IMG/VR virus record: IMGVR_UViG_3300037485_001103
Span: 1 to 27,463 of that record
Length of the DNA: 27,463 nucleotides
Origin: a virus
Direction: 5' to 3' (one strand)
Of this stretch, positions 1,243-25,504 are shown piece by piece. Numbering within the stretch: the first letter of the stretch is position 1; every line of letters starts with the position of its first letter. Under the pieces are notes generated by a model. It was not told where the DNA came from. It worked only from the letters and a program-made list of their open reading frames with translations, and ran no database searches. The position numbers were made by a program, and so were the translations under genes.

Positions 1243-2675
1243 CCGCCGAGGCCGCGGTCGAGGCCGCCCGGGAGAACCCGGCCGCCTTCCTCGCCCTGTG
1301 CCTTGGCAGGCCCGTCAGCCGCCTCCAGCAGGAGATGCTGCACCATGCCGTGGCGAACACCTCGTGGTACGCAGAGATCCCCCGCGGTCACGCCAAGACC
1401 TCGACCTTCGCCTACCTCGTCGCGTGGTGGGTGGGCATCCGCCCGGACGCCCGGTTCAAGATCGTTACCCAGACCGATGACCACGCCATCGCCACCACCC
1501 GGTTCATCCGGGACATCATCCGCGGCCCCGTCTTCCGCGCCTGCTTCCCGACCGTGAAGCTGAAGCCCGGGGAGGAAACCGTAAGTGCTTGGAGCGTCAC
1601 GGCTCCCGGCGTCGGCCCCCGCCGCGACCCGACCGTGCAGGCCACGGGCATCTTCGGCCGCACGGGCGGCCGCGCCGACGTGCTGTGGTTTGACGACATC
1701 TGCGACCTGCGGAACAGCGTCCTCCAGCCCGCCCTCCGCGCCCAGGTCAAGGAAGCCTACGCAAACATCTGGCTGCCGATGCTCGACCCCAGCGCCGAGC
1801 ACGAGCCACGCCTGTGGCGCACCGCAACGCCCTTCCACACGGATGACCTGACCGCCGATTGGCGGCGGGAGGCCGAGCCAGCGGGCACCCTTCTTCGTCG
1901 GCCGTGCATGGGCCTGACTAGCCCGTGGCCCGAGGTCTTCACCGCCGACGTCCTCGAGGCGAACCGCAGCGCGATGGGGCCGATGGCCTACGCCCGCGCC
2001 TACGAGCTGGTCCCCCTGTCCAGCGACCTTCTCGTCTTCCGCCCGGAATGGGTGGGGCACTACAAGGTCGGCCAGCAGCCCGAGCTCTGCCGCACGGTCG
2101 CGGCCATCGACTGGGGGTACTCGCGCAAGGCGCAGGACCGGGACGATCCCGACTACTCGGTCTGCCTCATCGGGGAGATCGACGCCGAGCGCAATTGCCG
2201 CCTCACGGACATCCTGCGCGTTCGAGACGCCTTCCCCGTCTTCGCCCGTCAGGCGTCCGACCTCTGCCGCCGGCGCGGGGTCTCCGCCGTCCTCGCCGAG
2301 GCCAACGGCCCCCAGCGCGGCATCTTCGACCAGTTCGCCTCCATGACCAGCCAGCCCATGATCGCGGTGGAGCGCGTGGCCGACAAGCACTTGCGTGCCG
2401 CCGGGGCGCAGCCCTTCGTCCAGGGCGGCAAGCTGCTGTTCCCCACGGACGATGCCGGGAAGGTGCTGCCCGCCTTCCAGCCCGTGCTCGACGAGATGCT
2501 GGCGTTCCCTGCGGGATCGCACGATGACACGGTGGACTGCGTGGTAGACCTATGCGCGGAAGCCGTGCGCGGCACGCTCTCGGCAGCCGACAGGAAAGTA
2601 CCTCGTATCGCCAAGCCCGACGCGATCACCCGCATCTTCGGGCAGCGCGAAGTGAAGCGCCCCTTCTTCAAGTGA
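1200..2675 (+). CDS. Terminase large subunit (DNA packaging ATPase and nuclease)
   Basis: The packaging motor protein cuts concatemeric DNA and drives it into the prohead using ATP. With the ATG at 1200 it is 491 residues. The ATPase domain shows a Walker A-like RGHAKT at about residues 62-67 and a Walker B strand with acidic pair, VLWFDD, at about 161-166. The nuclease domain shows AIDWGYS with Asp304, an AEANG segment, and HDD at 441-443 supplying the distal acidic residues. This is the normal order and size for the family. Start choice is uncertain: ATG 1200 has no clear Shine-Dalgarno, and GTG 1239 overlaps the upstream stop (GTGA). The frame stays open back to base 864, but that part overlaps the upstream gene and is not terminase-like. 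Confidence 0.95.
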   Translation: MPRAKPQAQAQAQVTAEAAVEAARENPAAFLALCLGRPVSRLQQEMLHHAVANTSWYAEIPRGHAKTSTFAYLVAWWVGIRPDARFKIVTQTDDHAIATTRFIRDIIRGPVFRACFPTVKLKPGEETVSAWSVTAPGVGPRRDPTVQATGIFGRTGGRADVLWFDDICDLRNSVLQPALRAQVKEAYANIWLPMLDPSAEHEPRLWRTATPFHTDDLTADWRREAEPAGTLLRRPCMGLTSPWPEVFTADVLEANRSAMGPMAYARAYELVPLSSDLLVFRPEWVGHYKVGQQPELCRTVAAIDWGYSRKAQDRDDPDYSVCLIGEIDAERNCRLTDILRVRDAFPVFARQASDLCRRRGVSAVLAEANGPQRGIFDQFASMTSQPMIAVERVADKHLRAAGAQPFVQGGKLLFPTDDAGKVLPAFQPVLDEMLAFPAGSHDDTVDCVVDLCAEAVRGTLSAADRKVPRIAKPDAITRIFGQREVKRPFFK

Positions 2676-2685
2676 CGGAGCAAGC

Positions 2686-4260
2686 ATGTACGCAGACCCG
2701 ACCCTGATGGACCTCGCAGCCGCCTACGCGAAGCGAAGCAACGGACGAAAGACGAAGCACGCGGTCGCGTGCGACCGCCCTGGCGCGAAGGCGAAGTTTG
2801 TGAAGTGGTTCACTGACCGCACAAAGGAGCTTCTGCGAGAAGCGCCTTACGTCGTGGGAGAGACCAAGAAGATCGCAAAGCAGATCGCCGCTCAGTCTGC
2901 ACAGCTGGAAGCAAAGTTAAATGAGCTGAAGGCAATCAAAGATCCGTCTGCGATGGAGGTGCGCGACCGCATCATTGCGTTGCACAATTCCATGACGGCA
3001 GACATTTCGCAGCTTCAGCGGGCGCTGCCAAACCAGTTCTCCCGCCCCGGCGCGAAGGCGGAGTTTGAGATGTCGGCTAACGAGAAAGCGTCGCTTGCTG
3101 CGCATTTTCGTGCGGTCACGATTCTGTTGAACAAGGCACGCGAAGACCTGTTTGCCGCAGAGAAGTCTGGCGACAACGCCGCGCTTCGCAAGGCGCGAGA
3201 AGAAATCCAGCACTATTCCAAGCAGCGCGAGGATGCAATCGCAATGCTAAAGGCTGCTGGACTGATGTCCCGCCCCGGCGCGAAGGCGAAGATGGGGAGA
3301 ATGTTGCAACCGTATGAGGTAACTGAGTTGCGGGAGTTCCTGGAGTCGTATGGTGTTACAAAGCACGACATCATCAAGAGCATCGGGCAAGTCAAGGTTT
3401 CCAAGTCGCAGGTGGGAAAGGCATTAGATGCCATTGCGGCGCTGAATAGAGAGATTCAAAAGGAAGGCATTGGCGACAAAGTTGTGGTGGATGTTGTGCC
3501 GTTCTCTCGCCCCGGCGCGAAGGCGAAGATGGCTCTCGCCATGAAACTGACGCCCGAGCAGAAGAAGTTCTACTACGAACTCTGGAACTTCTGGACGCCC
3601 GAGCGACAGAAGAATCCGACTGAACACGAGGCAGAACTTCGCGCTCTTGTTCGTCGCGCAAAGTCGATGCCGGATTTTCGCGTGACTGCCGCAGGTCAGC
3701 GGATGCCGAATCTTCATGAACTTGCTGACGAGCAGGAAGATCGAGTGAAGTCTTATTCCTCTCGCACCGGCACAAAGGCGAAGTTTGCCCAGCCTCCCTT
3801 CAGCGCATCCGACCTGAACGCGCTCAAGCGCCTCGTCAAGCAGTACGAGCAGCAGGCGAAGGCGAACAAGGGCAAGCAGGGACCGAACGGTGAAAACCTC
3901 GAGTTCAAGGCCTTGAGCATCGCTGGCTGGATGCAGGAGATGATTAACTACGCGCAGGCAGGGCAGACGGGCCGTGCGTACTCGATTGTGCGGACGTCGA
4001 ATCCGGATTACCTTCGCTTCCTTCCTGCCTCGCTGGTCAAGGCAGCGCAGGACGTGACGAAGATGTCCCGCCCCGGCGCGAAGGCGAAGTCCACCCACGC
4101 CGCGCTCCCCCCGCAGACCCTCGAGGCCGAGCGCAAGCCCGGCGGCGGCTCGCACTCCGAGGCCGTGAGCCGCAAGATCGCCACCCTCATCAACGAGGGC
4201 AAGCCGCAGGACCAGGCAGTCGCCATCGCGCTCGACCTCGAGCGCCGCGGCGAGCTGTGA
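2686..4260 (+). CDS. Repeat-punctuated modular protein with six RPGAKAK motifs, function unknown
   Basis: I do not recognise this 524-residue protein. Six copies of a SRPGAKAKF-like motif sit at residues 31-37, 120-126 (RPGAKAE), 196-202, 275-281, 360-366 (RTGTKAK) and 462-468, spaced 76-102 residues apart. The segments between them are unrelated to each other. Most look helical and charged, the first two coiled-coil-like; the fourth is aromatic-rich around YYELWNFW. The C-terminal ~55 residues (HSEAVSRKIATL, QAVAIALDLERRGEL) resemble short helical domains found in other phage proteins. No signal peptide, membrane segment or catalytic motif is visible. Between the repeats GC is visibly lower than in neighbours: the line 3421-3480 counts about 47%, against about 75% at 7261-7320 in the portal. 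It lies between terminase and portal, outside the usual core set. It could be a virion cargo protein, a processed polyprotein or a recombination-built adaptor. Confidence 0.8.
   Translation: MYADPTLMDLAAAYAKRSNGRKTKHAVACDRPGAKAKFVKWFTDRTKELLREAPYVVGETKKIAKQIAAQSAQLEAKLNELKAIKDPSAMEVRDRIIALHNSMTADISQLQRALPNQFSRPGAKAEFEMSANEKASLAAHFRAVTILLNKAREDLFAAEKSGDNAALRKAREEIQHYSKQREDAIAMLKAAGLMSRPGAKAKMGRMLQPYEVTELREFLESYGVTKHDIIKSIGQVKVSKSQVGKALDAIAALNREIQKEGIGDKVVVDVVPFSRPGAKAKMALAMKLTPEQKKFYYELWNFWTPERQKNPTEHEAELRALVRRAKSMPDFRVTAAGQRMPNLHELADEQEDRVKSYSSRTGTKAKFAQPPFSASDLNALKRLVKQYEQQAKANKGKQGPNGENLEFKALSIAGWMQEMINYAQAGQTGRAYSIVRTSNPDYLRFLPASLVKAAQDVTKMSRPGAKAKSTHAALPPQTLEAERKPGGGSHSEAVSRKIATLINEGKPQDQAVAIALDLERRGEL
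2773..4092 (+). repeat. Six in-frame ~24-27 bp direct repeats encoding (S)RPGAKAK(F/M)
   Basis: Copies begin at 2773, 3040, 3268, 3505, 3760 and 4066. The core cggcgcgaaggcgaag is exact in copies 3, 4 and 6. Copies 1 and 2 differ from the 20-base consensus at one base each, and copy 5 at three. Start-to-start spacings of 267, 228, 237, 255 and 306 bases are all multiples of three, so the frame is kept. The repeats use GC-rich codons (cgc ccc ggc gcg aag) although the modules between them use many A/T-ending codons. I infer either DNA-level copying or recombination, or strong constraint on a basic peptide. Confidence 0.9.
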
Positions 4261-4276
4261 ACCACAGGAGACAGAC

Positions 4277-5527
4277 ATGAGCACCGCAGGACATACGCCC
4301 AACTTCATCGCCGAAGAGGCCATCTACCCGTTCCGCTGCGTGAAGGTCGGAACCCTCCCGTTCAAGGCGGTCCCCTCCACCGCGAACCCGGAGATCCTGC
4401 TCGGCGTGACCGACGGGTCCATCCAGACCTTCAACGGCACCTACCACGCGACTGCCGGCCAGACGATCAGCCTCCAGAACGGCGAGTTCGTCCAGCTGAC
4501 AGCCAGCGGCAGCATCACGGTCGGCGACACGCTGATCGCCACCACGGACGGCAAGGTCGAGGCGAGCGTCAGCGCGACGGAGTACGTCGCCCAGGCGGCG
4601 GAGAACGCGAACGACGGCGAGATCTTCTGGGCGAAGAAGATCGGCGCGTGGACGGTCAGCGGCGGCGGCCCCAGCCCCATCGGCGGCGGCTGGCCTGCGC
4701 CGGAGTCGAAGGCGCTGTGGTCGTGCGAGTTCACGGGCGCGATTCCCGTGTTCGATGCCACCCCCGTCGACCCGGCGTTTCTGCCCGGTCCCGACTTTTA
4801 CTTCCAGCGATCCGACGCAGGCCAAGCGGCGGTTGAGCAGAACTATTTTCCGGTTGCGAGACACTTTGGTGTTGTCGATGTAAGTGTCATTGGCAACGCT
4901 TTCGACCCGCAATGGATCATGGTGGGAAATGCTCCTCCGATTACACCAGCCGACTTTAACGCATCATCCATTGGAGGTCGGCCCGGTGTCGATCTGCGGT
5001 ACGACAACAACGAGTTCGTCGTAATTTGGAAGCCGTATTCGTATTTGAACACCGGATCGGGACTTGACTGGAGGGTCTACGCTGGATGTTTGTCCGCTAG
5101 TCTGTCGTATCCAGATCATCCCATTGATGGTGGTGTCGGCTTCTTCTTCCGCGCATCGCCAGCCAACGCAAACTGGATTTGCGTGGCGCGGTTTTACAAT
5201 GCCACGACATCTTCGTTCATCGAATACACACAGGACAGCGGTGTGCCGATCAACATCGTTTCCCCGGCGTGGAAGAACATGAAGGTCATCACGGTCGAAG
5301 GATCGACGCCGGGTTCGTATCCGACTGTTGAGTGGTACATCGACGGAACGCTGATTCACTCTTTGGATGTCAACACCATTGCCAGCAACATCCGCAGTTC
5401 ACTTGATGCGGAACCGATCTTTGCGATGGCGGGCGCATATGTTGTAAACGACGAAGATGTAAGCCAAGTCTTGGCGAACCAGTTGGACTACATGCACGCC
5501 CTGACCACCTTCACGAACCCGAGGTAA
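4277..5527 (+). CDS. Head-decoration domain fused to a jelly-roll/lectin-like domain
   Basis: A 416-residue protein preceded by a good ribosome site (aggaga). Residues 1-127 clearly match the stand-alone decoration protein encoded at 11191-11583: both share PN-IA...PFR, GVTDGS, GQ/TQISLQ, a -DGK- and a GEIF-A--IG ending. A Gly/Pro linker (GGGPSPIGGG, about residues 129-138) leads to a ~275-residue C-terminal domain. That part is beta-rich and aromatic, with segments such as VGFFFRASPANANWICVARF and TVEWYIDGTLIHSL that recall LamG/concanavalin-like sugar-binding sandwiches. This is a family-level impression, not a match. GC falls and codon use shifts within the gene from about base 4790. The probable role is a capsid surface protein displaying an adhesin. 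It sits before the portal, not beside its paralogue. Confidence 0.75.
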   Translation: MSTAGHTPNFIAEEAIYPFRCVKVGTLPFKAVPSTANPEILLGVTDGSIQTFNGTYHATAGQTISLQNGEFVQLTASGSITVGDTLIATTDGKVEASVSATEYVAQAAENANDGEIFWAKKIGAWTVSGGGPSPIGGGWPAPESKALWSCEFTGAIPVFDATPVDPAFLPGPDFYFQRSDAGQAAVEQNYFPVARHFGVVDVSVIGNAFDPQWIMVGNAPPITPADFNASSIGGRPGVDLRYDNNEFVVIWKPYSYLNTGSGLDWRVYAGCLSASLSYPDHPIDGGVGFFFRASPANANWICVARFYNATTSSFIEYTQDSGVPINIVSPAWKNMKVITVEGSTPGSYPTVEWYIDGTLIHSLDVNTIASNIRSSLDAEPIFAMAGAYVVNDEDVSQVLANQLDYMHALTTFTNPR

Positions 5528-8464: not shown

Positions 8465-9538
8465 ATGGCAAAGGCGGCCGACATCCCCAGTTTGATGCAG
8501 GACGTGCTCCGTGACGGGGCCGACGCCTACCGGGCAGCCATTGCCGCCCAGATCGCCGGGCAGGACGCCAACAAGGCGTGGGACGCATGGGAGCAGGACA
8601 CGGCTGCCCTGCTGCTGGCGTCGTGGGTGGCGGGCGCCGCCGACAGCCTCAAGACCGCCGGCGTGCCATTGGCCGCCCCCAAGCCCGTCCAGTTCGCCGA
8701 GGATGACGCCCTGCTGGACTTCGAGCCAGGGGCCGCCCGGGAAATGATCCGCCGCTGGATGGCGACCGTGCCCCTGACCAAAGCCCGGTGGCAGGACCTG
8801 ATCCGCAAGGCGCTCGAGGCCGCCAATGAGCTGCGCCGGGACGAGCAGCAGACCGCCGTCCAGAAGATGGCCGACCGCAGCCCCCAGTTCCGGGCGCTGG
8901 TCTATCCCGATCAGATCCCTGCGGACGTCCAAGTGCGCCGCACCCCCGGGGTCGGCAAGGCGGCGCAGGAGGCGTTCTTCGTCTCGGGCATGACCCAACG
9001 ACAGACCGAGCAGCTCCGAGACCTCTTGGGAAAAGTAGTGCGCGGGCAGGAGACCCGCGACAAGGCCACCAAGAAGCTGCGGCAGATGGGTCTAGCTGAG
9101 TTCATTGAGCAGGCCGAGGAAGTGCTCAAGGTCGGCGATGACCTGACCGCCGCCCGGCTCGAGACCGTCTACCGGACTAATCTGAACCGGGCTGCCTCGC
9201 AGGGTCGATTGGACGTCTGCCGTGACCCGGTCGCCAAGAAGTTCGTCCCCCTGATGCAGTACCGGGCGACGAAGGACCGCCGAACCCGCGAAACGCACAA
9301 GGCGATGGACGGCTACGTGGCGACCACCGAGATGATCGACGCTATGGGGATCGCCACGCCGGCGGGCTTCCAGTGCCGATGCAGCTGGTCACCCGTGCCC
9401 ATCGCAACCGCCGTCAACCGTGGCTGGTGCGACCGCGACGGCAACCCGAACCTCGATCTGATCCAGCAGCACAACGCGCAGCGGCAGCGCCTCATCGACT
9501 CCGGACAGTTCCCCGACCCAGGCTTCATCGCCGGATGA
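8465..9538 (+). CDS. Minor head protein, Mu gpF / SPP1 gp7-like (MuF domain)
   Basis: A 357-residue head-morphogenesis protein. The N-terminal two thirds are helical with many Ala, Gln and Arg residues. The C-terminal MuF domain shows the usual succession: RLETVYRTNLNRAASQGR, then MQYRATKDRRTRETHKAMDG, then AGFQCRCSWSPVP, with the conserved Cys-x-Cys. In related phages this protein associates with the portal and is packaged in the head or aids prohead assembly. It starts 3 nt after the portal stop with aagg upstream. Its stop overlaps the ATG at 9535 (ATGA), giving the order portal, MuF, protease/scaffold seen in Mu-like and SPP1-like head modules. Confidence 0.9.
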   Translation: MAKAADIPSLMQDVLRDGADAYRAAIAAQIAGQDANKAWDAWEQDTAALLLASWVAGAADSLKTAGVPLAAPKPVQFAEDDALLDFEPGAAREMIRRWMATVPLTKARWQDLIRKALEAANELRRDEQQTAVQKMADRSPQFRALVYPDQIPADVQVRRTPGVGKAAQEAFFVSGMTQRQTEQLRDLLGKVVRGQETRDKATKKLRQMGLAEFIEQAEEVLKVGDDLTAARLETVYRTNLNRAASQGRLDVCRDPVAKKFVPLMQYRATKDRRTRETHKAMDGYVATTEMIDAMGIATPAGFQCRCSWSPVPIATAVNRGWCDRDGNPNLDLIQQHNAQRQRLIDSGQFPDPGFIAG

Positions 9539-11172
9539 TCCCGACGCCAAGCGCGGCATCCCTTCCGTCCCCACGCATCCCCCGTACCTTCAAACCGATG
9601 GCAGACATCGACCTCAAGCCCACGCAGGAGATGGCGGACAACGCCGCCCGCGGCCTTTCGCTCCGTGAGAAGCACGGACGAGGCGGCACCGAGGTCGGCG
9701 TCGCTCGCGCCCGCGACCTCAAGAACCGCACGAACCTGTCTCCCGAGACGGTGCGCCGGATGGACTCCTTCTTCGCCCGCCATGCGGTCGATAAGGAGGG
9801 CGAGGGATGGGGCAAGGACTCTGCCGGATGGATTGCGTTCCTTTTGTGGGGCGGCCAGGCTGGCAAGGATTGGGCAGCGCGAAAGGCGAAGGAGATTGAC
9901 CGCGCCGATGGCAAGGTCGAGAACAGCCGCGCCGAGCGCCCGTCCCATCGCGTGACCCCCGGCGACGGCTCGGTCACCATTCACGACCTCGAGGTCTTCT
10001 GCGCCTACGACCCGCGCATTGACGGCGACAGCGACGAGGAGCTGGCGACCTTCGACAATGAGCGCGTCCGTGGCATCGTGGAAGGCACGCTCAAGTACAT
10101 GGCGAAGGGGTCTATGCCCCGCCTCGTCGTGATGCACGAGCGCGACGGCCAGGAGCCGAAGAGCTCCGTTGGCCGATTCACCAAGCTCCGGTATGAGGAG
10201 CGCCAAGGCGTTGGGTACATCGTCGGGGATTGCGAGGTGGAGCGCAGCGTGTTCGACAAGCTGCTCGCCACCAACGCCTTCCCCCGGCGCAGCGCGGAGA
10301 TCTGGCCGGAGCAGAACCACCTGTCCGAGGTGGCCCTGCTGGGGCGCGAGACGCCCCGACGGCCCCTCCCGGATACGCACTTTGGCCGCGCCGGCGCTCC
10401 GGTGCGGTTTGCTCGTTCTCTCCGCTTCGACATGGGAACGGTCGGCGGCGGGCTTTCCACGTTCGTTCCCGGTACGAAGGACACCCACCAAATGGACGAC
10501 CTGCACAAGGAGGTCGCCTCCCTGAAGGCCGCGATGGACGAGATGAAGGACGCCATGAAGCGTGCCTTCGCCGCCGACGAGGCCGAGGACGGCGACAAGA
10601 AGGAAGAGATGGCGGCCGAGGACATGCTGACCCAGCAGTTCGCGGCCGAGGATGAGGACAAGATGGAGTGCGCCGAGGACGGCGTGCACATCGACATCGG
10701 CAGCCACCTCGGCGAGGATGATGAGGAAGGCGACGAGGAGGACGGCGCGGAGATGGCTATGGGCGGCGACAAGCGCCTGCTGGCCACCCGTCCCGGCAAG
10801 CCCGACGTCTTCGCGCTCCGTCGTGAGAACGCCAAGATGGCCCGCGAGCTTGGCGCGATCAAGGCCGAGCTGAAGAAGGCCGAGTTCACCCGCGAGATCG
10901 ACACGCTCGAGGCCGAGGGCTACCGCATCCCGGCCGCCCAGCGCCCGCGCCTGATCGCGGAGCTGATGACGAGCGGAAACCCCCAGGAGACCATCGACTG
11001 CTGGCGCGAGCTGTTCGCCCGCGACCCGATGGGCGTCCGCATCGACATGAGCCGCGCAGCCGCCCCCTCGGGCGACCTGGACGGCTCCGAGATCTCCGCG
11101 CTGGTCCGCGAGTTCGCGGGCAAGCCGGAGGAGTTCAAGAAGGCCATCAACACCCGCCTCAAGAAGCGGTAA
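9535..11172 (+). CDS. Capsid maturation protease and scaffold fusion protein
   Basis: With ATG 9535, coupled to the MuF stop by ATGA, the protein is 545 residues; ATG 9598 is an alternative (524 residues). Residues about 30-120 form a compact domain with KHGRGGTEVGVARARDLKN, RRMDSFFARH and GWGKDSAGWIAFLLWGG. I have seen this module in other phage proteins, without known function. Residues about 140-300 look like a Mu gpI-type protease region (HERDG, SSVGRF, FPRRSAEIWPE, EVALLGRETPRRP). The last ~230 residues are scaffold-like: a coiled coil (LHKEVASLKAAMDEMKDAMK), a long acidic tract rich in Asp/Glu, then a helical C-terminus. An internal ATG at 10432 (Met300) would give a scaffold-only product. 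Right after it, VGGGLSTFVP copies the capsid N-terminus. Catalytic residues cannot be assigned with confidence. Confidence 0.75.
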   Translation: MIPTPSAASLPSPRIPRTFKPMADIDLKPTQEMADNAARGLSLREKHGRGGTEVGVARARDLKNRTNLSPETVRRMDSFFARHAVDKEGEGWGKDSAGWIAFLLWGGQAGKDWAARKAKEIDRADGKVENSRAERPSHRVTPGDGSVTIHDLEVFCAYDPRIDGDSDEELATFDNERVRGIVEGTLKYMAKGSMPRLVVMHERDGQEPKSSVGRFTKLRYEERQGVGYIVGDCEVERSVFDKLLATNAFPRRSAEIWPEQNHLSEVALLGRETPRRPLPDTHFGRAGAPVRFARSLRFDMGTVGGGLSTFVPGTKDTHQMDDLHKEVASLKAAMDEMKDAMKRAFAADEAEDGDKKEEMAAEDMLTQQFAAEDEDKMECAEDGVHIDIGSHLGEDDEEGDEEDGAEMAMGGDKRLLATRPGKPDVFALRRENAKMARELGAIKAELKKAEFTREIDTLEAEGYRIPAAQRPRLIAELMTSGNPQETIDCWRELFARDPMGVRIDMSRAAAPSGDLDGSEISALVREFAGKPEEFKKAINTRLKKR

Positions 11173-11190
11173 TCAAGGAAGGACACTCAC

Positions 11191-11583
11191 ATGGCAGACT
11201 TCGGTTTCATCCCCAACCTCATCGCGGGCGGCAACATCAACCCGTTCCGCTTCGTTGAGATCTCGACCAGCGCGGCCTTCACGGGCACGCAGGCGAACGC
11301 CGCGTCCGACAACATCGTCGGCGTGACGGACGGCTCGGTCTACAAGTTCGACGCCAGCCTGAACGCCGTCGCCGGCACGCAGATCAGCCTCCAGCCGACC
11401 AACACCGTGCAGGTCGAGGCCGCGACTGGTGGCGTCACCATCGGTTGCTACCTGACGTCGGACGCTGACGGCAAGGCCCTCAAGACCACGACCTCTGGGC
11501 AGGTCGCTTACTACATCGCCCTCGAGGCGGCAAACGCGGGCGAGATCTTCCGCGCTTTCCGCATCGGCCCGCGCACCCTCTGA
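11191..11583 (+). CDS. Head decoration protein
   Basis: A 130-residue protein just upstream of the major capsid gene, preceded by aaggaaggac. It is beta-rich with Gly/Thr/Ala turns. Features are PNLIAGGNINPFRFVEI, GVTDGS, a TQISLQ strand, TIGCYLTSDADGK and an AGEIFRAFRIG ending. Size, fold impression and position between scaffold and capsid genes match phage capsid-stabilising decoration proteins (DUF2190-like). The same domain recurs at the N-terminus of the fusion encoded at 4277-5527, so the genome holds two paralogues, one plain and one with an added C-terminal domain. Confidence 0.75.
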   Translation: MADFGFIPNLIAGGNINPFRFVEISTSAAFTGTQANAASDNIVGVTDGSVYKFDASLNAVAGTQISLQPTNTVQVEAATGGVTIGCYLTSDADGKALKTTTSGQVAYYIALEAANAGEIFRAFRIGPRTL

Positions 11584-11610
11584 ACCTGACCCCAGAAAGG
11601 AGTCACACAC

Positions 11611-12666
11611 ATGGCTTTCTACGCAGTCGGCGGTGGTCTTTCGACCTACGTGCCGAGCACCAACGACCTCGCCACGGGCGCTCTCCAGGTGGAGTTCACC
11701 CGTACGGTCAACTCGTTCGCCCTCACGCGCTACGCGCAGCTCGTCCCGACCAGCAAGATGTCGGGCTACTACCTGCGCCAGGACGTGTCGGACAACGTCC
11801 GCATCACGGACGCCAACGAGTTCGTCTGGCCGCTGGGCAATGACCGCCCGACGGGCAAGCAGAACTCGTTCGAGTTCCTGCCCTACACCACGCAGCGCTT
11901 CACCTTCCCGTTCTACATCCCGCAGGAGACGTCGAACCAGGCGGCGTGGGATGTGGTGGCGCAGCACGCCCGCAGCAAGATGCAGCTGGCGATGACCCGG
12001 CGCACGCAGGCCGCGGCGACCACCCTCGCGGACAGCAACAGCTGGACCTCGAGCGGCAACTACGCGGCGTTCTGCAACAGCAGCCCGCTGTCCATCGGCG
12101 CTGGCTCGCAGTGGACCACGTCCACCACGAGCAACAACTACATCCAGAAGACGATCCGCGCCGTCCTCCAGCGCGTGTCGCAGACCTCGGGCGGCGCCGT
12201 CAGCCCGAACCAGCTGATCATGGTGATCAGCCCCGCGGTCGCCGTCGCCATCGCCGGCACCGAGGAAGTCCAGAGCTACGTGAAGAACTACGGCGCCGCG
12301 CTGTCGTTCCTCCAGGGCTCGGACACTTTCGCCCGCTGGGGCGTCCCGCCCACCCTGTTCGGCCTCGGCGACGTCGTGGTCGATGACTCGGTGGTCGTGA
12401 CCTCCAAGAAGGGCGGCACGCTGGCCACGTCGTGGGTGCTCGGCAACGGCGCCTACTTCGTGAGCCGTCCGGGCGGTCTGGTCGGCGTCGAGGGTTCGAC
12501 CTCGTTCGCCACCCTCCAGATCTTCGCCTACGAGGACATGACGGTCGAGAACTGGAACGACCCGTACAACCGCCGCATGGAGGGTCGCGTGATCGACAAC
12601 TCCACGCCGGCCGTGGTCGCGCCCGTCGGTGGCTTCGCCATCGGCAACGTCCTCGCCGCCTCGTAA
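11611..12666 (+). CDS. Major capsid protein (HK97-fold candidate)
   Basis: A 351-residue protein with the strongest ribosome site in the head block (agaaaggag, 11595-11603), fitting a highly expressed product. It follows protease/scaffold and decoration genes, where the capsid gene is expected. The sequence shows a flexible N-arm (residues 1-20, including VGGGLSTYVP), an E-loop-like region near PLGNDRPTGKQNSFEFLPY, a long helix region (QAAWDVVAQHARSKMQLAMTRR) and C-terminal beta segments (VVVDDSVVVTSKK, WVLGNGAYFVSRPGG). Length and order suit HK97-fold proteins. I identify it by context and architecture, not by a known family signature. A strong hairpin follows the stop. Confidence 0.85.
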   Translation: MAFYAVGGGLSTYVPSTNDLATGALQVEFTRTVNSFALTRYAQLVPTSKMSGYYLRQDVSDNVRITDANEFVWPLGNDRPTGKQNSFEFLPYTTQRFTFPFYIPQETSNQAAWDVVAQHARSKMQLAMTRRTQAAATTLADSNSWTSSGNYAAFCNSSPLSIGAGSQWTTSTTSNNYIQKTIRAVLQRVSQTSGGAVSPNQLIMVISPAVAVAIAGTEEVQSYVKNYGAALSFLQGSDTFARWGVPPTLFGLGDVVVDDSVVVTSKKGGTLATSWVLGNGAYFVSRPGGLVGVEGSTSFATLQIFAYEDMTVENWNDPYNRRMEGRVIDNSTPAVVAPVGGFAIGNVLAAS

Positions 12667-24087: not shown

Positions 24088-24602
24088 TCCGGTGGCTTGC
24101 GACCGTCCTGCTCACGCTGGCGGCCGCAGGATGCAGCCCCTCGGCGGAGATCGCCATGCGGGCGAACCGCATCGCTGACCGCGCCCGGGAGGACGCGGCG
24201 GCCTGGACCCGTGCGGAGACGGCGCACCCGGACCTGCGCGGCGAGGCCGACGCCGGGCGCAAGCGGGCGGACGCCGACATCAAGGACGCCTTCGGAGTGA
24301 CGGTGGCCCTGACTGGGGTGGAGGACCAAGTGCCGTGGTGGGCAAGCCTGCTCGGCTGGCTCGCGGCGGCCGTCGGCGCCGTCTGCGTCGTGGTCATCCT
24401 GTGGCAGACCGGGCTTGGCACGGCGATCCGCGTGGCAATAGGGTGGCTGCCCCGGCGCAAGGTGCAGGAGGCCGACCTCGCGGTCGCCATGCTCGACGGG
24501 GACAAGGCCGAGGGACCGCGGGAGTTCGTGGCGGCAAAGCGGGCGGCCGACCCCGTGTTCGACGCCTGCTTCCGCAAGGCGCAGGAGAAGGGGAAGCCAT
24601 GA
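24084..24602 (+). CDS. Membrane lipoprotein with a second membrane segment, possible spanin-like protein
   Basis: A 172-residue protein. The N-terminus MIRWLATVLLTLAAAGC is a lipoprotein signal with lipobox LAAAGC, so Cys17 would be lipidated. Residues about 18-80 are charged and helical, Ala/Arg/Asp-rich. Residues 85-107 (WWASLLGWLAAAVGAVCVVVILW) form a clear membrane segment. The C-terminal ~60 residues are charged and probably cytoplasmic. A lipidated N-terminus together with an internal membrane helix is uncommon for ordinary phage lipoproteins. Proximity to the holin-like gene suggests a lysis role, for example a spanin-type function, but exclusion or other envelope roles are possible. 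It is coupled by ATGA to both neighbours. Confidence 0.65.
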   Translation: MIRWLATVLLTLAAAGCSPSAEIAMRANRIADRAREDAAAWTRAETAHPDLRGEADAGRKRADADIKDAFGVTVALTGVEDQVPWWASLLGWLAAAVGAVCVVVILWQTGLGTAIRVAIGWLPRRKVQEADLAVAMLDGDKAEGPREFVAAKRAADPVFDACFRKAQEKGKP

Positions 24603-25504
24603 AGAACTTCCGGGTGATTTCGCACGCCCGCAACGTGCATACGGTCGAGCTGCTGGGCGGCAGCAAAACCGACGAGTGGAGCTTCTTGCTTCGAGGGGAC
24701 GCTCACCATGACAACCCACACAGCCTGCACGATTTAGAGCGCAAGCACCTCGAGGAGTGCAGGGCCGCTGGCGGGGGCTGGATCGACGTGGGCGACCTCT
24801 TCTGCGCCATGCAGGGCAAGTACGACCCGCGCCGGGCGCGGCAGTCTGTGCGCGACGAGGACGCGATGGCGGCCGACTACCTTGACTCGCTGGTGCGGAA
24901 CGCGGCCACGTTCTACAACCCCTACGCCGAGAACTGCGTCCTGATTGGCCGCGGCAACCACGAAACGGCCATCTTGAAGAACTGCGAGACCGACCTGACC
25001 GAGCGGCTCTGCGAGCGCATGAGCCAAGCGACCGGACACAAAGTGCACTCGGGCGGCTACGGTGGCTGGATCAGGTTCGTCGCCAAGTGCCACCAGCAAC
25101 AGTACACCCTGCTGCTCAAGTACTTCCACGGCTCGGGCGGCGCGGCCCTGATGTCGTTCGACACCCTCAAGGTGCGCCGGGCGGCCGCCGTGACCCCTGA
25201 CGCCGACGTGGTCGTGAGCGGGCACGTGCACAAGCAGTGGGTGATGCCGCTGGCCCGGGAGCGCCTAATCCTGAACAAGGAAGGCGCCCGGGTGGTTTCC
25301 GACGTGCAGTGGCACGTCCGGACGGGGACCTACAAGGACGAGTTCGATGACGGCTTTGCAGGGTTCCACGTGGAACAGGGGCGCACCCCAGAGATGATGG
25401 GAGCGGTCTGGATGAAGCTGCACTTCCGGTCTAGGCGGGTGCAGAACGAGGGGCGAAAGAACAGTCTCTACGAGCTGGTGCCGGAGTTCCGGCTTGCACA
25501 CTAG
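24599..25504 (+). CDS. Calcineurin-like metallophosphoesterase
   Basis: A 301-residue enzyme starting at the ATGA overlap with the lipoprotein gene. It has the full set of metal-binding motifs of the family: GDAHHD (Asp34, His36), GD at about 65-66 (DVGDLF), GRGNHE at about 117-122 (Asn120, His121), His177 in KYFHG, and GHVH at about 208-211. Such enzymes coordinate two metal ions and cut phosphomono- or phosphodiester bonds. The substrate could be nucleic acid, nucleotide or a cell-wall phosphate; it cannot be read from sequence. The DLFCAMQGKYDPR and DLTERLCERM segments recall related phage-encoded enzymes. Its placement among membrane and possible lysis genes, not among replication genes, is unusual. 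Confidence 0.85.
   Translation: MKNFRVISHARNVHTVELLGGSKTDEWSFLLRGDAHHDNPHSLHDLERKHLEECRAAGGGWIDVGDLFCAMQGKYDPRRARQSVRDEDAMAADYLDSLVRNAATFYNPYAENCVLIGRGNHETAILKNCETDLTERLCERMSQATGHKVHSGGYGGWIRFVAKCHQQQYTLLLKYFHGSGGAALMSFDTLKVRRAAAVTPDADVVVSGHVHKQWVMPLARERLILNKEGARVVSDVQWHVRTGTYKDEFDDGFAGFHVEQGRTPEMMGAVWMKLHFRSRRVQNEGRKNSLYELVPEFRLAH

Follow-up and report, generated by a model that had tools for sequence, protein, structure and literature searches.

The gpO protein of bacteriophage P2 carries a protease domain (residues 1-141) that is considered to act on gpO itself and to trim the first 31 residues off the capsid protein gpN (PMC7552001). The herpesvirus genes UL26 and UL26.5 form a protease gene with a nested in-frame scaffold gene, the two products having a common C-terminus, and an autoproteolytic release site lies between protease and scaffold (PMC4498786). 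In Staphylococcus phage 80alpha, the capsid and scaffold proteins share an N-terminal peptide that is cut by the host protease Prp, removing 13-14 residues (PMC5744158, PMC9405229), and in phage SPN3US the gp245 protease cuts eight head proteins as well as its own C-terminus, at an A-x-E site (PMC5694885). In this study, we describe a peptide that occurs twice in the head-gene region of a virus record of 27,463 bases (IMG/VR record IMGVR_UViG_3300037485_001103, positions 1 to 27,463; the whole of this stretch is referred to as the window): once at the N-terminus of the major capsid protein, and once in the linker of a single protein in which a predicted prohead protease is followed by a scaffold (Table 1). 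Both copies are kept among the relatives of this phage and change together, and the repeated peptide is, on balance, probably the site that the prohead protease encoded by this phage recognizes and cuts.

The scaffold copy (VGGGLSTFVPGTKD) and the capsid copy (VGGGLSTYVPSTND) are identical at 11 of 14 residues, and the original prediction, which had reported this match between scaffold residues 303-316 and capsid residues 6-19, was exact in both coordinates and residues. When the scaffold protein was compared with the capsid by BLASTP, the motif was the sole significant segment (11/14, E=4e-4), and its local alignment score of 60 was reached by none of 1000 shuffled capsids (mean 34, standard deviation 4.2, maximum 53). 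A relaxed pattern of the motif has exactly two plus-strand matches in the 27 kb window, in the scaffold and capsid genes, and exactly two in each of 20 relatives' loci, always in the same two genes; a third copy, sought in the other main proteins of the window, was not found. Codons differ at 7 of the 11 identical residues, and over 72 distinct pairs (522 matched residues) the fraction of identical codons was 0.44, against 0.50 expected from codon usage, so that gene conversion finds no support at the level of codons. Since codon agreement is at background, the match has been kept by protein-level selection and not by recent DNA copying, as had been argued originally from the differing wobble positions. 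The presence of the shared peptide in the two proteins is thus confirmed.

Relatives were gathered from IMG/VR and from bacterial genomes by eight scans of viral contigs and one scan of genome contigs; a viral-contig scan with the scaffold of one locus (L140) as the query gave no matches. The relatives sort into five clades. In clade 1, which is the type of the window, VGGGLST[FY]VP is found in both scaffold and capsid, with variants in the capsid, and in clade 2 both proteins have VGGGLNT[FY][VI]P. In clade 3, the scaffold copy reads GVGGG[LSA]NTF[VI]P and most capsid copies read GGG[LP]NTF[VI]P; in clade 4, scaffold and capsid have PG[VA]GNVF[VI]P and GGGL[NS]TF[VI]P, respectively. The capsids of clade 5 are about 37% identical to that of the window, and here a peptide of the form P-x-x-x-N-[TV]-F-V, with variation, is usually found in both proteins (excluded were five loci of this clade for which no scaffold frame lay within reach). 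The motif was present in both proteins at all 150 loci of clades 1-4 with both regions readable, in 44 distinct combinations; orthologues without a scaffold copy, which the original prediction had named as counter-evidence, numbered none among these 150 pairs. The clearest loss of the motif is in a clade 5 locus (L212), in which, unlike nearly all relatives, protease and scaffold lie on separate reading frames (919-2253 and 2121-3497). The protease copy of this one case is degenerate (PGAMTVSPK).

The two copies also change jointly. Mean agreement between the scaffold and capsid copies of the same genome was 6.25 of 9 positions, against 4.37 of 9 when the genomes were re-paired (51 pairs). The difference persisted for pairs with capsid bodies more than 30% apart (5.85 against 3.97 of 9; 26 pairs, P=2e-5, permutation), for those more than 40% apart (5.94 against 4.04 of 9; 18 pairs, P=2e-5, permutation), and within clade 5 alone (5.4 against 3.9 of 9; 20 pairs, P=2e-5), where some of the scaffold motifs had been identified as the segment most similar to the capsid, a choice that could inflate the agreement. 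Four loci that were first left out (L199, L212, L234 and L243) were added and read by position, and the result was unchanged. As a genome's own copy is closer than that of another genome, the copies are not merely drifting independently, and the co-variation that the original prediction had proposed to look for is found (P=2e-5). Joint change affects mainly residues two to four, six and nine. Individual loci illustrate it: PGPTSV is found in both proteins of L180 (PGPTSVFV/PGPTSVYV), PSATN in both proteins of L182 (PSATNVFV/PSATNTCV), and NVAVP in both proteins of L234, with Phe changed to Ala in each. The capsid copies of L014, L015, L097, L107 and L117 have an altered fourth residue (GGGNSPYIP, GGGNNAFIP) and the scaffold copies of these loci keep Leu, so the copies do not change jointly at every position.

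Within the protease-scaffold protein, the motif stands out as conserved amid a variable linker, about 20-30 residues from the protease domain, with G304-G306, L307, T309 and P312 invariant (alignment A1); in the capsid it is followed by a strongly conserved N-arm (VEFTR). His201 and Ser253 of the protease domain are invariant in 44 sequences that are 25-92% identical to that of the window, and this conservation makes them candidate catalytic residues of an assemblin/gp21-type protease. A VIA second-look structural comparison of the domain placed T4 gp21 first (Z 7.4, root-mean-square deviation 3.1, 117 residues) and the herpesvirus assemblins next (Z 5-6), gp21 and the assemblins making up 16 of the top 17 rows. 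The best named match in a viral model library was the capsid maturation protease of Gordonia phage Jumbo (E=1.2e-7), several prohead proteases being matched as well, and one relative gave a weak match to PHROG 3778, head maturation protease (E=0.68). Plain Foldseek against the PDB returned nothing significant for the domain (best E 5.5e-3, MCE-domain proteins); the relation to assemblins was indicated by the VIA comparison and by the viral library. From these models, the domain is predicted with moderate confidence to be a protease with the fold of T4 gp21 and the herpesvirus assemblins. AlphaFold, run with 44 sequences on the protease plus linker, modelled the domain fairly well and left the stretch from protease to coiled coil, including the motif, disordered (predicted local distance difference test, pLDDT, <50); its model of the full protease-scaffold protein, made with 17 sequences, was poor (pLDDT 55).

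A second start signal lies shortly downstream of the motif: each of the 43 representatives of clades 1-4 has, 6-11 residues past the motif, an ATG with a Shine-Dalgarno sequence, which is weak in a few. The Shine-Dalgarno sequence is nearly always AAGGAG, AAGGA or similar and is coded by differing residues (TKDTH, KEEAS, KGKN, KRKN, KKESN), and the mean duplex energy with the 16S tail was -7.9 kcal/mol at the internal ATG, whereas the remaining Met codons of these frames averaged -3.6 kcal/mol. An internal ATG and Shine-Dalgarno sequence of this kind also occur in most of clade 5, slightly further downstream. A synonymous-codon control for the internal Shine-Dalgarno sequence gave no enrichment in most clades, because the amino acids (KEE, KKE, KD) themselves spell it; codon choice favouring it was seen only in some clade 3 loci. 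In the window, the internal start at 10492 follows the motif by about 10 bases, and a short scaffold product begun there would therefore be without the motif. The scaffold is thus probably also made alone, which would give the gene two products.

We favour a reading in which these elements act together in head maturation. The gene would make a full-length protease-linker-scaffold protein together with a shorter scaffold, from ATG 10492, that has neither protease nor motif, and the full-length form would enter the prohead through its scaffold part. At maturation, the predicted protease would cut the motif in its own linker, at a putative scissile bond, and so be freed from the scaffold; it would also cut the same motif at the capsid N-terminus, with the loss of a short propeptide (about 10-15 residues). 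The two copies would change together since both would have to be read by the same active site. Of the options first raised for the peptide, a shared cleavage sequence is favoured since the motif lies in a flexible linker, is conserved and changes in step in the two proteins, and in P2 gpO and herpesvirus UL26, which are arranged alike, the resident protease does the processing. The degenerate protease copy of L212, where the protease-scaffold joint is absent, may be regarded as a natural control and, as one case, points the same way.

Several points weigh against cleavage at a shared site. Joint change is coarse at the tips of the tree: in 23 genomes the own scaffold copy was a better match than the copy of the nearest relative that differs, in 13 it was a worse one, and in 11 the two tied. 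The scaffold and capsid copies of clade 4 have drifted apart (PGVGNVFVP and GGGLNTFVP, respectively). A site of 9-10 residues is longer than the known sites of T4/phiKZ type (x-x-E). The protease domain matched no family in Pfam and, because of this and of a Z score under 8, the assignment of its fold is only moderate; a cultured relative was also not found. In the AlphaFold model, the motif was not placed in the active site, but with the linker at pLDDT <50 it was left disordered and docking in cis could not be judged, so that this result gives no information and does not count against cleavage.

Joint change would likewise be expected of any binding site that the two proteins share. The linker motif could hold the place later taken by the capsid N-arm and thereby anchor the few full-length proteases in the prohead until capsid N-arms displace them, or both copies could bind one partner, for example the inner face of the capsid or the portal; these two variants taken together are possible, though we consider them unlikely. 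They are consistent with the strongly conserved N-arm that the capsid motif precedes, and in 80alpha the N-terminal sequence of the scaffold is needed for assembly and need not be cut, while mutants in which the capsid site stays uncut or is already cut remain viable (PMC5744158). On the other hand, the scaffold begun at the internal start, probably the abundant product, would lack the motif, leaving the protease-bearing form as the only one that could use it; the motif also lies precisely where protease and scaffold join, and is degenerate where this joint is absent. Mimicry of the capsid N-arm, another of the options first raised, is less likely, since no mimic would be present on the abundant scaffold product. 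A linker copy acting as a tethered stand-in for the capsid N-arm, which holds the protease in place or inactive until capsid N-termini outcompete it, seems to us doubtful; if true, maturation would be timed by the arrival of enough capsid subunits, and the jointly changing copies would be the mark of such a stand-in. Considerably less probable still is that, after cleavage, half of the motif stays in the protease active site as a product inhibitor and times maturation by being displaced by capsid N-termini. The data that agree with cleavage agree with this as well, and the motif is near enough to the domain to reach the active site, but no such docking was seen in the AlphaFold models.

The remaining two explanations deserve hardly any credence. 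The original prediction had also considered that a separate scaffold starts at ATG 10432, with the peptide at its N-terminus as in the capsid. This ATG is indeed in frame and three codons ahead of the motif, but it has no Shine-Dalgarno sequence (duplex energy +0.7 kcal/mol), the next clade has Leu in place of its Met (FDMGT to FDLAG) and further clades have other residues, and the conserved nested start with a Shine-Dalgarno sequence is past the motif; as a start site, 10432 is therefore discarded. That the peptide is a functionless product of recent duplication, gene conversion or chance has nothing in its favour beyond the resemblance itself, and we regard it as scarcely credible: codons agree no more often than background, pairs with capsids more than 45% diverged still share the motif, and the match beats all shuffles. 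Chance resemblance in particular is refuted by the occurrence at 150 of 150 loci together with the excess of own-genome agreement over that of re-paired genomes.

Table 1. Features of the protease-scaffold and capsid genes in the window
Feature	Positions	Strand	Remarks
Protease-linker-scaffold gene	9535..11172	+	545 amino acids counted from ATG 9535
N-terminal accessory module, PHROG 2859	9598..9915	+	Residues about 22-127; only in some relatives
Predicted prohead-protease domain	9931..10383	+	Residues about 133-283; candidate catalytic His201 (codon 10135-10137) and Ser253 (codon 10291-10293), numbered from ATG 9535
Variable linker, predicted disordered	10384..10440	+	Alignment variability; pLDDT under 50
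Shared motif, scaffold copy VGGGLSTFVPGTKD	10441..10482	+	Residues 303-316
Shine-Dalgarno-like AAGGA of the internal start	10477..10481	+	Sequence, duplex energy
Scaffold domain, probably also translated alone	10492..11172	+	Internal ATG 10492
Decoration/cement-like protein, 130 amino acids, without the motif	11191..11583	+	Between scaffold and capsid genes
Major capsid protein, 351 amino acids	11611..12666	+	PHROG 1005
Shared motif, capsid copy VGGGLSTYVPSTND	11626..11667	+	Residues 6-19, capsid N-terminus

Relatives place a conserved start of the protease-scaffold reading frame near ATG 9598 (MADIDLKPT) and not at 9535. This suggests that 9598 is the true start, and the residue numbers used here, counted from 9535, may be 21 too high. 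The accessory module (about 100 residues) appears to be mobile, as it is fused to the protease in the clade of the window, is found on the C-terminus of the portal in L009, L010 and L139, and is absent from the protease-scaffold gene of L014, L015, L022 and others; it resembles a 'putative DNA-binding protein' of phage PaBG.

The capsid matches the major head protein family PHROG 1005 (E=4e-6), and from this match to a known family it is identified as a putative HK97-fold major capsid protein. No sequence relative of the capsid was found in the PDB, and none among the annotated phage records searched, at the sensitivity used. The terminase, portal and Mu-F-like genes are all upstream of the protease-scaffold and capsid genes, so the gene order is the usual head order of tailed phages, and the protease-scaffold gene lies just upstream of the capsid gene, as it does in P2. 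Upstream of the portal, a 416-residue protein (4277-5527) has an N-terminal cement-like domain (PHROG 673) resembling the decoration protein at 11191-11583, and the phage may thus have two decoration proteins. Directly upstream of the terminase, 126-818 gave a strong match to a DNA methyltransferase (PHROG 498, E=7e-94), and downstream of the tail genes, 24335-25504 matched a DNA repair exonuclease family (PHROG 7339, E=1e-9).

The sites of prohead proteases can seldom be found from sequence, being as a rule too short and too variable, and a jointly changing peptide of 9-10 residues would predict where the head proteins of an uncultured family are processed. The family would also offer a natural library of matched protease-substrate pairs in which the evolution of specificity could be studied. 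Seeking capsid N-terminal peptides that are repeated at the protease-scaffold joint may be a general way to maturation sites.

Compared with the known systems, the protein described here is like P2 gpO in having an N-terminal protease and a C-terminal scaffold in one protein, encoded just upstream of the capsid gene. In the P2 record, residue 141 of gpO and residue 31 of gpN are both Phe, so that Phe stands before each cut, and the motif described here mostly has Phe or Tyr. As a positive control, gpO was compared with gpN and gave no extended match (score 24, at the level of shuffles), only the Phe before the cuts being common to the two. Unlike the gene described here, P2 is not known to use an internal scaffold start. 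The herpesvirus UL26/UL26.5 pair is similar in its nested scaffold start at the protease-scaffold joint and in its protease fold, but the herpesvirus major capsid protein is not known to be cut and the second site is at the scaffold C-terminus, whereas the second copy here is at the capsid N-terminus. A common capsid/scaffold peptide of 80alpha type, near the capsid N-terminus, is also present here, with the scaffold copy at the protease joint; 80alpha relies on a host protease and has its scaffold copy at the N-terminus, while the phage of the window would use its own protease and has an internal copy in the linker of that protease. In T4 (gp21, the closest solved structure), phiKZ-like phages and SPN3US, one short motif is cut in several head proteins and the C-terminus of the protease is auto-cleaved; that motif is three residues long, ends in Glu and occurs in many head proteins, whereas the peptide found here has 9-10 residues, is rich in Gly or Pro-Gly and occurs in two proteins only. 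The C/Nu3 gene of lambda is a protease gene with an in-frame internal scaffold start; the lambda coat protein is not known to be trimmed, nor is a capsid-like peptide known from the lambda joint. Protease sites common to head proteins and nested protease-scaffold genes are therefore already known, and the novelty lies in a jointly changing site of unusual length, probably for cleavage, which is confined to the protease-scaffold joint and the capsid N-terminus and recurs throughout a large family of uncultured phages.

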